This document shows positions 1 through 30,886 of a stretch of DNA of 41,594 nucleotides, in pieces. The notes under the pieces are model-generated. The model searched no databases. It worked only from the letters and a program-made list of their open reading frames with translations, and was not told where the DNA came from. Every line of letters begins with the position of its first letter. Position 1 is the first letter of the stretch. This DNA is from an uncultured Saprospiraceae bacterium (GTDB lineage: Bacteria > Bacteroidota > Bacteroidia > Chitinophagales > Saprospiraceae), in assembly GCA_937923465.1 (NCBI GenBank), contig CALDUB010000011.1, positions 1-41,594 of the forward strand, written 5' to 3'. The position numbers were made by a program, and so were the translations under genes.

Positions 1-140
1 CGCTATTTTCCTCTTAAAAATAGTTCCCCCGAAGTGTCGGGGCAGGCTGTGATGCAGACCGCCGAGCAAAGCATCGGCACACGGCATGCAACGATTTTTA
101 AAAGAAAACTATCGAAAAAATCTCTCTGTCAAATTTATCC
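1..140. repeat. Structured intergenic repeat, copy 1 (probably cut by window edge)
   Basis: Bases 1-25 and 90-114 form an imperfect inverted repeat (20 of 25 positions match by eye). The same two 25-mers recur unchanged at 24273-24297 and 24341-24365. Inside lies a stem 61-65 / 74-78 (GCCGA / TCGGC) and an extra hairpin 27-42 (CCCCGA, loop AGTG, TCGGGG) that copy 2 lacks. Similarity to copy 2 continues to about 140. The outer arms seen in copy 2 cannot be tested here because the window begins at base 1. Two near-identical 14-bp units (152-165 and 166-179) follow at the end of the protease gene. Confidence 0.8.
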
Positions 141-175
141 ATAGTAGCGAACCCACAACTCACAACCCACAACTC

Positions 176-21896: not shown

Positions 21897-22048
21897 ATGA
21901 AAAGAATATTACTTATTGTATTTGTTGCTTTATCCCAATTTGGGTAAGCATAAGTACGTGACACTATTTATATGATATAAATACCTTGCGAGAAATCACC
22001 ATTAAATTTTACGAACCAGACTACCTTCGATATGAAGGAGAAACATAA
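21897..22048 (+). pseudogene. Truncated, frameshifted CotH-like gene remnant
   Basis: ATG 21897 opens a plausible signal peptide, MKRILLIVFVALSQFG, then TAA. In another frame the sequence continues HYLYDINTLREITIKFYEPDY and on to LRYEGET with TAA at 22046-22048. The strand pattern LYDINTLREITIKFYEPDY resembles the N-terminus of CotH-kinase-domain secreted proteins of Bacteroidota. The gene would thus be both frameshifted after the signal peptide and deleted for nearly all of its body, leaving about 50 codons. It adjoins the REP-like element and the 3' end of the PorP/SprF gene. The CotH assignment rests on recall of family appearance and is moderate. Confidence 0.55.
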
Positions 22049-23094: not shown

Positions 23095-23250
23095 TTATGA
23101 ATGAAGCTTGGAAATAATAATCGAAAACCAATTTAGGAATTCTTTCGGTTTTTTGGAGATAAAAGAGGACTTTTGTTGCTGATTGGCGGAAAATTAATGT
23201 TTACAATGAAAAAATAGAACATTAAGCGTGATAGGATTGAAAATCGGATA

Positions 23251-23317
23251 ATGCGGATAGGGCGGATTTAGGCGGATGCGCTAAGAAAAAATCCGCTTTA
23301 ATCCGCCCTATCCGCAT
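23251..23317. repeat. GCGGAT-rich near-perfect inverted repeat
   Basis: 27-bp arms 23251-23277 and 23291-23317 match except for a 3-base block, around a 13-base loop. Each arm is itself made of the word GCGGAT/ATCCGC repeated about every 9-10 bp; further copies continue to 23325 (CATCCGCGTATC). It lies between the divergent porP-like and HAD genes. Intergenic ATCCGC-type palindromes are common in Bacteroidota as dispersed repeats (recall, not checked). Confidence 0.85.
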
Positions 23318-23369
23318 CATCCGCGTATCAATCATGTATTCTTAGCAAGCAAATTTCAACTAAGCAATT

Positions 23370-24053: not shown

Positions 24054-24106
24054 ACTTAAATTTTGATTTTTCCTTAAAAGTCAGTTACTTGTGACCAATC
24101 AATAAA

Positions 24107-24151
24107 GTGCCACCGGCACGACAGTCTTCAGCCTTGTACGTGAGTGCAAGG
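24107..24151. repeat. Two small hairpins 3' of the HAD gene
   Basis: GTGCC-ACC-GGCAC (24107-24119) and CCTTG...CAAGG (24132-24136 with 24147-24151). There is no strong T-run; they may help end the HAD transcript. They directly precede the long palindrome. Confidence 0.5.
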
Positions 24152-24484
24152 ATTTTCAAAGTAATAATTTAGGTTCTCCGCCAAATCGTGAGAAAGTGAC
24201 ATGAAAAAAAATGAAAAGCTAAGTTAAGTAAGTGACATTATTTATTTGGGTAATTTGAAAACATCTTTATTCCGCTATTTTCCTCTTAAAAATAGTTCCG
24301 TAGTGCAGACTTCCGAGCAGAGCATCGGAACACGGTATGCAACGATTTTTAAAAGAAAACTATCGAAAAAATCTTGCTCTCAAATTTTACCCAAATAAAT
24401 AACTTCACTTACTTATTACTTGATTTTAGCTTTTAATTTTTTCCTGTCACACGATTTGGCGGAGAACGATAATTTAAAAATCCT
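24149..24484. repeat. 336-bp imperfect palindrome containing structured repeat copy 2
   Basis: The two halves mirror each other almost end to end: AGGATTTT at 24149 with AAAATCCT ending 24484. Next GTTCTCCGCCAAATCGTG (from 24173) is mirrored near 24450-24467, then AAAAGCTAA, GTAAGTGA and TTATTTATTTGGGTAA with its mirror near 24388-24403. The inner 25-mers 24273-24297 / 24341-24365 are shared with copy 1 at the window start. The core 24298-24340 holds the stem TTCCGA (24311-24316) / TCGGAA (24325-24330) around GCAGAGCA. The right edge stops 6 bases before the ATG of the next gene, so the whole 5' leader of that gene is one palindrome arm. No coding capacity. Confidence 0.85.
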
Positions 24485-24490
24485 GTCCAA

Positions 24491-25177
24491 ATGGCAATGT
24501 TTAAAAAATTCAAATCTCTATTCGTAGAAGAAATCGAAGGAGCTCAAGAGACGAATAAGGTACATGCAGATTCGATGCCCAAAGCTAAATCTAAACCGAC
24601 GCCACGTCCTGCTGCACCTGTTAGTTCTAACGAAGAAACAGGTGTTCCACATACAGGTCAAGTGACAGATAAGTTTATGAAAATTCTCTTTGGAGCAATG
24701 GACAAAGCCAACTTAGATGGGTTTGATTATTTGGAATTTAAGAACTCATTGAATTCGCTAAAGAAAATGCAACAAATGGATGAAGCAACCCGCTTCCAGT
24801 CCGCTTTTGCTATGGCGCAAACAATGGGAGCAACACCACAGAATTTGACGCAAACAGCTCAGCATTACTTAAATGTTTTAGAGAAAGAAGAAAAGAAATT
24901 TGAGCAAGCATTAGACGGCAATATGCAAAAGCAAATTGGCACTAAGCAGCAGGAAATGAAAGCTTTAGCAGCTCAAATAAACGAGAAAGAGAAGATGATA
25001 AAGAAGATGACTGCGGAGATAGAGGCAAGTAAGAAAAAGCACCAGAAAGTACTAAATGATGTTAAGAAAGCATCGACTAAGATAGAAGTAACAAAGTCTG
25101 ATTTTATTGCCTCTTATGAAGCCATTCGCGCGCAAATTGTGCGTGATATGGAGCACATTAAGAAGTATTTGTCTTAG
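24491..25177 (+). CDS. Coiled-coil protein of unknown family
   Basis: A 228-residue soluble protein with no signal peptide. A basic N-terminus (MAMFKKFKSLFVEEIEG) is followed by a Pro/Ala/Ser-rich linker (about 25-55), a small helical domain (about 57-125, ...DKFMKILFGAMDKANLDGFDYLEF...) and a long coiled coil (about 128-228, rich in Lys/Glu/Gln). The pattern fits a cytosolic scaffolding or tethering protein. I do not recognise the family. ATGs at 24491 and 24497 are both possible, with no Shine-Dalgarno to decide. Its 5' leader lies in the long palindrome and its 3' end in another hairpin, so expression may depend on these structures. Confidence 0.75.
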   Translation: MAMFKKFKSLFVEEIEGAQETNKVHADSMPKAKSKPTPRPAAPVSSNEETGVPHTGQVTDKFMKILFGAMDKANLDGFDYLEFKNSLNSLKKMQQMDEATRFQSAFAMAQTMGATPQNLTQTAQHYLNVLEKEEKKFEQALDGNMQKQIGTKQQEMKALAAQINEKEKMIKKMTAEIEASKKKHQKVLNDVKKASTKIEVTKSDFIASYEAIRAQIVRDMEHIKKYLS

Positions 25178-25183
25178 TTCGAA

Positions 25184-25256
25184 AAGTATCACGGTCGTTC
25201 CACGCCGTGTCCAAGTCTCGCTTGGAAAAACACGCCGTAGAACGGACGTGATACTT
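25184..25256. terminator. Long interrupted hairpin between convergent genes
   Basis: Outer stem AAGTATCACG (25184-25193) pairs with CGTGATACTT (25247-25256). Inner pairs run through CGTTC / GAACG and CGTGT / ACACG to CCAAG-TCTCG-CTTGG. Total stem about 30 bp with a few mismatches and one 4-base bulge. It sits 7 bp after the plus gene and reaches the stop codon of the minus gene (25256-25258). Probably a bidirectional terminator, though longer than usual. Confidence 0.8.
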
Positions 25257-26236
25257 TACTTCAGTACATTATCCGCCAACATTTTATCAATAAAAGTACG
25301 TGCACCCGCCTTATTCAAGTGTTGATAATCACCAAATCCTGCGGTTTCTTTTACCGCTAAAGAATAATCATTTACAGGCAATCCCGTCTTCGCTTCTACC
25401 GTCCTTTTCAAATCTTGAATATTCACTATTTTATTAGCAAAAGCAGGAAAATAAGGATTGATAACCAATTCGACTTCTGTTCCTTTAGCTTGTGCGTACT
25501 TCACCATTTCAACTAATTGATTGATGACATATTCAGGATTAGTTTCTACATCTGTTCCTTTCGTCGGCGAGTCAGTTACCATATCAACTAATTGATTCGT
25601 GACATATTCAAAACTGGTTTTTACTTGTTTAGTTTTCTGAGTTGGCTGAAAATCAATTGTGTAATCTTTCAAATCCGCAGAACCTTCCACCATACCATCA
25701 CTAATCACTCTATCCAATAACCAATCTTCATCTGTCTTATTTTGGAAGAATAAATTACGCTGATAAAGTTCAGAATTGTAACGGAAAAGATGCGAAAATT
25801 GCGAACCATTATAAGCAGTATCAGACTTGTCTTTCAGTAGTTTAGATAACTTTTCAGAGTAAGGAGCATACATTTTAAAATCACTCATCAATTGGTCATT
25901 CAGGCGGTCACACATCGTCACATCTACCACCATTTTCTTAGGCGCAGGGTAGAGGTCAAAGTAATCTTGTACCAATACATTCGCCAAATCAATCGGCATA
26001 CCATTATAACTTACATTGAAAGTTTCGGACTGTGTAACTTCTTCAATATAAGGTTGGTAGAAGATAAGTCCACGAGAATTTCCCACTAAAAGTATATCTG
26101 CCTCCGCACGATTATCGTACAGACGTGCATAGCGAAACTGGCTATCAGCTGCTTGCTGCTGCATCACATAACCAATGGCGCGGTCACCCAAAAAGGTGAT
26201 AGCTAAAACTGCGAATATCCAAAGAGAGTTTTTCAT
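25256..26236 (-). CDS. SGNH/AlgJ-DltD-like membrane-anchored protein of a polysaccharide acylation pair
   Basis: About 326 residues with one N-terminal membrane helix (MKNSLWIFAVLAITFLG) and an extracytoplasmic domain. A SGNH-type block (ILLVGNSRGLIFYQPY, likely nucleophile S54) lies near the start and a terminal GDYQHLNKAGA fits the Asp/His block. Such proteins pair with MBOAT acyltransferases to move acetyl or other acyl groups onto polysaccharide; the MBOAT gene is immediately upstream. ATG 26236 is chosen because the longer TTG form (26287) would translate through an intergenic repeat. A tandem duplication with 75-bp period lies around 25500-25620 (residues EYVTNQLVDMV... / EYVINQLVEMV...). 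Confidence 0.8.
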   Translation of the reverse strand: MKNSLWIFAVLAITFLGDRAIGYVMQQQAADSQFRYARLYDNRAEADILLVGNSRGLIFYQPYIEEVTQSETFNVSYNGMPIDLANVLVQDYFDLYPAPKKMVVDVTMCDRLNDQLMSDFKMYAPYSEKLSKLLKDKSDTAYNGSQFSHLFRYNSELYQRNLFFQNKTDEDWLLDRVISDGMVEGSADLKDYTIDFQPTQKTKQVKTSFEYVTNQLVDMVTDSPTKGTDVETNPEYVINQLVEMVKYAQAKGTEVELVINPYFPAFANKIVNIQDLKRTVEAKTGLPVNDYSLAVKETAGFGDYQHLNKAGARTFIDKMLADNVLK

Positions 26237-26242
26237 AACAAA

Positions 26243-26298
26243 AGTTGTAGCACAGGCTTGCAGCCTGTTCGTTCTGCGGATTTGCAACCCGCAACAAT
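26243..26298. repeat. Double-hairpin intergenic repeat
   Basis: CAGGCT-TGC-AGCCTG (26253-26267) and TGCGG...CCGCA (26275-26279 with 26289-26293) stand side by side, flanked by GTTG / CAAC. The motif GTAGCACAGGCTTGCAGCCTG is familiar to me as a widespread Bacteroidota intergenic word (recall, unchecked). It separates the MBOAT gene from its SGNH-like partner. Confidence 0.7.
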
Positions 26299-30735: not shown

Positions 30736-30886
30736 GACCCCCTAACCCCCATTTGGGGGAACTTTCTTCGATTTTAATTCCTCTGATAATTCTCAATTTT
30801 AATTTTTCAGGTTGAAAATAAGAAATTAAGAATTACAAAAAAAAATAAGCTAAATGAGTGTTCCCCCAAATGGGGGTTAAGGGGTC
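30736..30886. repeat. Inverted repeat with nested CCCCC/GGGGG hairpins between GT2 genes
   Basis: Arms 30736-30762 and 30860-30886 are inverse over 27 bp with one mismatch. Each arm is itself a small palindrome (CCCCCATTTGGGGG and CCCCCAAATGGGGG). About 97 bp separate the arms, partly A/T-rich with weak further symmetry. It may be a processed hairpin between cistrons or a non-autonomous repeat. Confidence 0.85.

Follow-up and report, generated by a model that had tools for sequence, protein, structure and literature searches.

A palindrome upstream of a coiled-coil gene in an uncultured Saprospiraceae bacterium consists of two nested hairpin MITEs, of which the inner belongs to a family that folds better on one strand

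In bacteria, long palindromes are generally considered unstable, and the window studied here (the whole stretch of DNA that was analyzed, 41,594 nucleotides from an uncultured Saprospiraceae bacterium) raises the question of why one should stand directly in front of a coiled-coil gene. A first-pass annotation had described positions 24149–24484 as a 336-bp imperfect palindrome forming the whole leader of that gene, and had offered two readings, a recent mobile element or a maintained structure. RNA folding of 24149–24484 gave a minimum free energy of −112.7 kcal/mol compared with −56.7 ± 5.1 in 100 dinucleotide shuffles (z −10.9; 0/100 as good), and DNA folding gave −78 compared with −28.4 for the shuffles (z −13.0; 0/100 equal), indicative of one long hairpin far beyond anything in the shuffled sequences. 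The segment is also repeated, since at least 76 matches to a 351-base palindrome query were found in its own genome when 40 of 252 candidates were scored; the symmetry therefore exceeds that of shuffled DNA in an element with many genome copies.

The limits of the element were set by a target-site duplication, the perfect 8-bp sequence ATAATTTA, which is present at both 24164–24171 and 24469–24476. Of the two readings, that of a recent mobile element is the right one, and the duplication proposed as a check on it is present. The mobile palindrome proper occupies 24172–24468 (297 bp), and as RNA it folds at −124.8 (z −14.4) when read from the minus strand and at −107.6 from the plus strand. The edge octamers AGGATTTT and AAAATCCT, which had been taken as the ends of the palindrome, both lie outside the duplication and are part of the target DNA, since an empty site would have them as arms of 8 nt with 15 nt between them. 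The right end had likewise been placed 6 bases before an ATG at 24491; the element ends at 24468, and because the same-genus orthologue of the gene starts MFKK the gene start is most likely 24497, 28 nt past the element. The description of a single palindrome holds for the hairpin and misses that it is a composite, in which an outer element contains an inner one with a mini-hairpin, while the observation that the center recurs at window positions 1–140 was borne out, the repeat being located at 1–136 by BLAST or 1–162 by a covariance model. The features are as follows.

1..162, minus strand: another inner-MITE copy, truncated where the contig ends (model score 64.8 bits)
24106..24151, minus strand: Acido-Lenti-1 motif (RF01687), a 46-nt dispersed repeat (cmscan 40.4 bits, gathering score 37)
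24164..24171, no strand: target-site duplication ATAATTTA, left copy, 8 bp, paired with the right copy
24172..24226, plus strand: left arm of the outer MITE (GGTTCTCCGCCAAATCGTG...), left TA included; its end is repeated in the own genome
24225..24226, no strand: left TA of the pair that flanks the inner element
24227..24413, minus strand (the more stably folding strand): inner TA-flanked hairpin MITE, 187 bp (model score 146.1 bits on minus, 73.1 on plus)
24311..24335, plus strand: 25-nt mini-hairpin TTCCGAGCAGAGCATCGGAACACGG within the inner MITE
24414..24468, plus strand: right arm of the outer MITE, with the right TA at 24414–24415
24469..24476, no strand: target-site duplication ATAATTTA, right copy, 8 bp
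24497..25177, plus strand: coiled-coil gene, start likely at 24497 (the open reading frame call starts at 24491; the same-genus orthologue begins MFKK)

The outer element was characterized through its end, GGTTCTCCGCCAAATCGTG, which occurs 94 times in the source genome at up to three mismatches, the reversed control pattern occurring 0 times. A search of 60 genomes with a related pattern at up to two mismatches found outer ends in the own genome only (0 in 59 relatives). Scanning of 45 loci delimited 31 copies, 14 loci being without a pair; 28 of the 31 are empty and measure 100–111 bp, mostly 107–108 bp, and the other three measure 291–297 bp and each have something inside. A perfect 8-bp duplication flanks 21 of the 31 and is present at the window locus. 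Terminal inverted repeats, a target-site duplication and a multicopy, short and non-coding sequence mark the outer element as a MITE. The ISL3 family of transposons makes 8-bp duplications and has GGxTCT ends. The outer element shares the duplication length, and its first bases, GGTTCT, are those of one resident ISL3 end, GGTTCTTTATG; past ~ 6 bases, however, its ends diverge from both resident ISL3 elements. Both resident ISL3-type genes (C310 and C260) were rejected as partners because they have other ends, and the outer MITE was therefore given no ISL3 assignment. No partner transposon was found among the ISL3-type genes examined in the source genome assembly (5.75 Mb in 502 contigs, 89% complete).

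The inner element sits in the loop of the outer one, on a TA. Insert-free copies are ~ 160 bp long, and TA was present on both flanks in 37/38 copies with a search pattern lacking flank bases and in 35/37 with a pattern including one flank base on each side; inverted ends and a target duplication, here TA, thus identify a MITE in this case also. None of 36 copies lay inside an open reading frame of at least 80 amino acids. IS630/Tc1-type MITEs such as RUP make TA duplications. This duplication is common to the inner element and is the sole pointer to IS630/Tc1-mariner, and a difference is that some members of the inner family use TWA. Several contigs of the assembly start or stop inside the inner-MITE repeat. 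At window positions 21951–21975 a solitary inner-type end, TAAGTACGTGACACTATTTATATGA, was seen for which no partner end was found; it is probably a remnant.

Four complete copies in its subfamily (L003, L007, L009 and L010) lack the GC-rich mini-hairpin that the window copy carries; partial copies at C83, C110, C385 and C228 resemble the window copy across 140–146 bases. Other inner subfamilies have similar mini-hairpins at four points, one subfamily having a similar insert at the very point used in the window copy. A strict pattern for one mini-hairpin type matched 48 places in the genome, many of them inside inner-type elements, the control giving 0. Mini-hairpins of the form CCCGA(n)TCGGGRCARGC are numerous both in the own genome and in three relatives, G010, G020 and G030 (56, 20 and 16 matches), some being discrete inserts in MITEs; across the 60 genomes eight more had 1–3 and 48 had none.

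The nesting itself can be read from the copies. With the inner element taken out, the two outer arms join into a sequence that agrees across the junction with outer copies lacking an insert, for example AAGTTATTACTT in L115 and L126. A second outer copy, C402, holds an inner element of a different subfamily at a TA 3 nt away and has its own perfect outer duplication, TATTTTTT. A third, C362, holds a third hairpin with a TTA duplication and again has its own perfect outer duplication, ATTAAATT; the covariance model recognizes this hairpin at 32.1 bits (E 2.6e-4). As the window locus, C402 and C362 each carry a distinct insertion, the outer loop was hit by at least three independent insertions. 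By eye, an inner copy was also seen in a diverged outer-like palindrome (C190), and another off-center in a further one (C395). The outermost 20-odd bases of the outer MITE are, by eye, without TA, and for this reason no preference for the center is claimed. A preference of the inner element for palindromic targets was considered and rejected: symmetric complementarity at 35 sites was no better than with swapped flanks (p 0.14–0.53). When offsets were allowed, the mean energy at 50 sites fell below that of swapped flanks (p 0.003), a result driven by a few sites (L158, where the site is in a terminator-like hairpin, L003 and L001), and the same comparison by counts at fixed cut-offs gave p 0.07–0.21.

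The order of events would then have been the following. First, an outer MITE of ~ 108 bp entered the space between the genes and duplicated ATAATTTA. Its loop was next the target of a hairpin MITE that inserts at TA, with the 25-nt mini-hairpin either carried already or gained later. One palindrome placed in the center of another makes a longer one, the 297-bp hairpin. The duplications, the empty copies and the independent nested cases demonstrate the nesting, and the palindrome is thus a pair of nested MITEs, ordinary in kind.

What is unusual is the inner family: its size hardly varies, its core is conserved, its ends can be exchanged and its wobble pairs are one-sided. A 164-bp query copy found matches in at least 8 of 120 family genomes, its own included, in seven genera (seven candidates per genome scored). 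Outside the source genus there are six genera, and in five of these approximately the central 80–100 bases are matched, at 71–83% identity, one 30-base piece aside; in G072 the match mostly extends into one arm. The elements that could be delimited are mostly 157–162 bp with differing ends; exceptions in size are 117 (L250), 174 (L257) and 180 bp (C362), together with copies in the own genome whose inserts bring them to as much as 252 bp. Representative ends were read family by family, a generic end finder having been unsuccessful on many of 40 loci; in the alignment of inner copies several rows stand in reverse orientation and L214 was entered twice. Families of several kinds with AGT ends have TA in 11 of 13 pairings (both exceptions are pairings of L249 that arose by chance), and GACTTG ends have TA in three of five pairings from six loci. 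A 3-bp TWA duplication was found instead with GGGCTTCGG ends (3/3), with GTAAAA ends (five of seven pairings, the two misses again chance pairings) and with GGAACG ends (1/1). The presence of both TA and TWA duplications suggests that at least two kinds of transposase may be involved.

Searches beyond the bacterial family were also made. One 160-bp representative had no match among plasmids and phages at E 0.01. The 16-base motif occurs in 49 viral contigs, where BLAST with 20 representatives found nothing but the motif itself, in L280, and two further viral contigs with another core string gave no covariance-model match. As a separate observation, positions 1640–1801 of L369 hold a second, weaker model match (47.2 bits) that adjoins the G137 element and suggests two hairpin elements next to each other.

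The one-sided pairing was examined by counting mismatched pairs. When a transition alters one side of a pair in a DNA palindrome, one strand carries G.T and the opposite strand A.C, and neither is expected to be favored; the reference strand was set by the core sequence. On this core strand the 20 representatives had 129 G.U and 35 A.C pairs, and the RNA energy was lower than that of the other strand in 20/20. Among 86 distinct copies, which exclude those within 60 nt of a locus end and were oriented by best match to representatives that are themselves among the 86, the RNA energy was lower on the core-defined strand in all 86, by a mean of 16.5 kcal/mol (range 1.3 to 30.3), and G.U exceeded A.C in 73, fell below it in seven and tied with it in six. 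The arms outside the core had 58 G.U vs 5 A.C in 19 representatives and the core itself 65 vs 27, G086 being excluded from the arm count for a misplaced right end. When the elements were grouped by their ends by hand, G.U was ahead in eight groups and tied in two (AGTGCCAC and AGTAGTGAG), the C362 element being counted whole on its model-matched strand; in the arms of families G114 and G137, G.U and A.C were tied. The consensus energy of 15 of the 20 representatives, the other five being left out of the alignments, was −52.4 for the core strand, compared with −21.8 for its complement. Double changes were found at 34/61 pairs on the core strand and 28/49 on the other, and symmetric DNA ends would give such changes too. 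Note that the core pairs are homologous and not independent, and that some arm positions are also shared by descent.

The outer MITE served as a control. Its 27 copies had 46 G.U vs 52 A.C pairs, summed by hand; one strand had the lower energy in 20/27 copies, by a mean of 1.6 kcal/mol, so the inner family is not alone in having at least a weak energy bias. A mixed picture came from four further inverted repeats in the window (G.U/A.C 1/3, 4/7, 4/2 and 1/2). One of the four, a 151-bp imperfect palindrome at 30736–30886 whose strands have unequal energies of −64.6 and −76.1, is possibly another hairpin element. The strand polarity of the inner family was observed directly in these counts, and it is the part that DNA symmetry fails to explain. 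The same polarity was obtained with DNA parameters in 20/20 representatives, so RNA and single-stranded DNA are not distinguished by it. Relative to flanking genes, 19 of the 86 copies were same-sense and 18 opposite (first 36 rows: 10 and 6; L208 excluded from the table); among copies no more than 60 nt from a stop codon, 16 had the stable strand in sense and nine in antisense, and at the same distance from a start codon nine had it in sense and 15 in antisense.

The inner arms keep their pairing mainly on one strand by means of G.U wobbles. The favored interpretation is that the core strand would be under selection in folded, single-stranded form, be it as RNA transcript or as DNA, the DNA palindrome staying imperfect. 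Selection on one strand, and the level at which it acts, are inferred from the pattern of pairs. A different origin of the polarity would be mutation that favors one strand, such as C to T changes in whichever strand is exposed as single-stranded DNA when the element transposes. G-C/G.U exchanges do occur at several pairs (such as columns 59–107, 49–117 and 79–86) and no clear gene-orientation bias is seen, both as mutation bias would have it; A-U/G.U exchanges, however, are equally prominent (columns 35–131, 36–130, 58–108 and 61–105), and C deamination alone is insufficient for these. The occurrence of both kinds of exchange on the core strand speaks against one mutational process alone, and mutation bias is judged unlikely. 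It could also be that the shared core and the polarity reflect ordinary descent, that is, one MITE lineage with drifted ends and an unconstrained core, and here the homologous cores and the many ends of the loose form AGT(A/G)...ACT are in keeping. Descent of this type does not readily accommodate the shift of duplication type between TA and TWA, the confinement of the match to about the central 80–100 bases in five of six other genera or the recurrence of the polarity in the arms of different families, and is doubtful to the same degree as mutation bias.

A more specific version of selection on one strand can be put forward as a tentative model, with confidence well short of even. The inner element would be a hairpin cassette of ~ 160 nt with one strand functional as folded RNA or single-stranded DNA, which may parasitize different transposases through several unrelated sets of ends (TA, TWA), the G.U pairs keeping the fold without the perfect palindrome that the cell would destroy.

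The relationship between the palindrome and the coiled-coil gene was studied through the orthologue. The gene has a match in 35/60 genomes, its own included, and no Pfam family over the cut-off; the same-genus orthologue is 63% identical and has a different upstream open reading frame. BLAST of 24101–24490 against the orthologue locus returned nothing but a 16-base chance match, so the elements are missing there, and the nesting is thus an insertion in the source lineage and no conserved sequence. Of the proposal that the palindrome is the whole leader of the gene, the adjacency holds, and the leader of the orthologue is also a hairpin, while the absence of the elements at the orthologue counts against it. 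The 93-nt leader of the orthologue (L131, 1408–1500) folds strongly (−45.5 kcal/mol, z −7.0, 0/200 shuffles), by way of GGAGAGAGG/CTCTCC text unrelated to the palindrome of the window. With two genomes compared, and with inverted repeats being a frequent feature of the intergenic DNA here, the occurrence of hairpin leaders in both may be a coincidence. The GGAGAGAGG/CTCTCC text was also seen flanking an inner-type element in the genome of the orthologue (L262).

That the palindrome is a regulatory leader maintained for the coiled-coil gene, with a hairpin needed whatever its sequence, is improbable. It does lie just upstream of a conserved gene and fold very strongly, and the unrelated strong hairpin of the orthologue (z −7.0) would suit such a role; against this, the elements are missing at the orthologue and dispersed elsewhere in the own genome, Rfam at the gathering threshold gave none in 13 of 20 fetched gene loci, and at the window locus the inner element folds better on the strand that is antisense to both flanking genes, this gene included. 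A riboswitch or other regulator in the leader was rejected as a candidate, because the Rfam scan of the mobile palindrome returned no family over its gathering score (plant miRNA models match below their cut-offs) and the orthologue is without the elements. A read-through transcript would be expected to bear a very strong hairpin, with the ribosome-binding and translation start region outside it. Almost no credence attaches to an origin of the palindrome in which one local sequence was duplicated in inverted orientation, for although the arms are near mirror images, the target duplications, the dispersed empty copies and the separately dispersed inner copies speak against it. The best explanation overall, and one that is very probably correct, is that of nested non-autonomous transposons, the inner belonging to a hairpin family of which one strand would be selected as a folded single strand.

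Other repeats lie close by. The Acido-Lenti-1 motif adjoins the target site and is outside the mobile palindrome, overlapping by 3 nt the edge that had been drawn at 24149. The own genome has at least 29 matches to it, 18 over the cut-off, with 150 of 578 candidates scored. Its copies (L031–L059) are sharply bounded at 46 nt with unrelated flanks, and three head-to-head pairs 14–17 nt apart are present among the matches listed. In this genome the motif seems closer to a REP-type repeat than to a fixed RNA gene; a RAYT-linked REP was rejected, as the motif was not found in the loci around seven Y1_Tnp genes. An inverted repeat of ATCCGC-like units at 23235–23333, similar text to which flanks some Acido-Lenti-1 copies, may be a dispersed repeat. 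A 75-bp direct duplication, 75% identical, was observed at 25469–25618 inside a minus-strand open reading frame (25256–26287).

Bacterial MITEs have been described as Correia/NEMIS, ERIC, RUP, Nezha and QMITE2 (PMC10969869, PMC2229807, PMC3733652), and, as far as the available text of these papers goes, the elements described here resemble them in being short, non-coding and intergenic, with inverted ends, target duplications and transcripts predicted as strong hairpins. They differ in that one MITE is nested in the loop of another, and in that the inner family keeps its core and size, swaps its ends and duplication type, and pairs in a strand-polar manner; the portions available of PMC10969869, PMC2229807 and PMC3733652 make no mention of a nested MITE, exchangeable ends or strand-polar pairing. 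Palindrome nesting is already known in kind from REP dimers inside larger palindromes, namely GTAG-15 of A. variabilis and CGTC-1 of H. neapolitanus, in the part of PMC3733652 that describes them. There, too, a small palindrome lies within a longer one; REPs, however, are 20–40 bp according to that text, whereas here a ~ 160-bp TA MITE lies in a MITE with an 8-bp duplication. Among the titles and abstract openings of the open-licence papers listed, nothing was found on the inner family or on wobble polarity of bacterial MITEs.

The base-pair polarity test needs sequence alone and is applicable to any MITE family. The inner family suggests a way round the instability of palindromes, in which G.U pairs let one strand fold and the duplex itself remains an imperfect palindrome. 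Were the polarity a product of selection, such MITEs would carry a strand-specific product and would be more than scraps of transposons.
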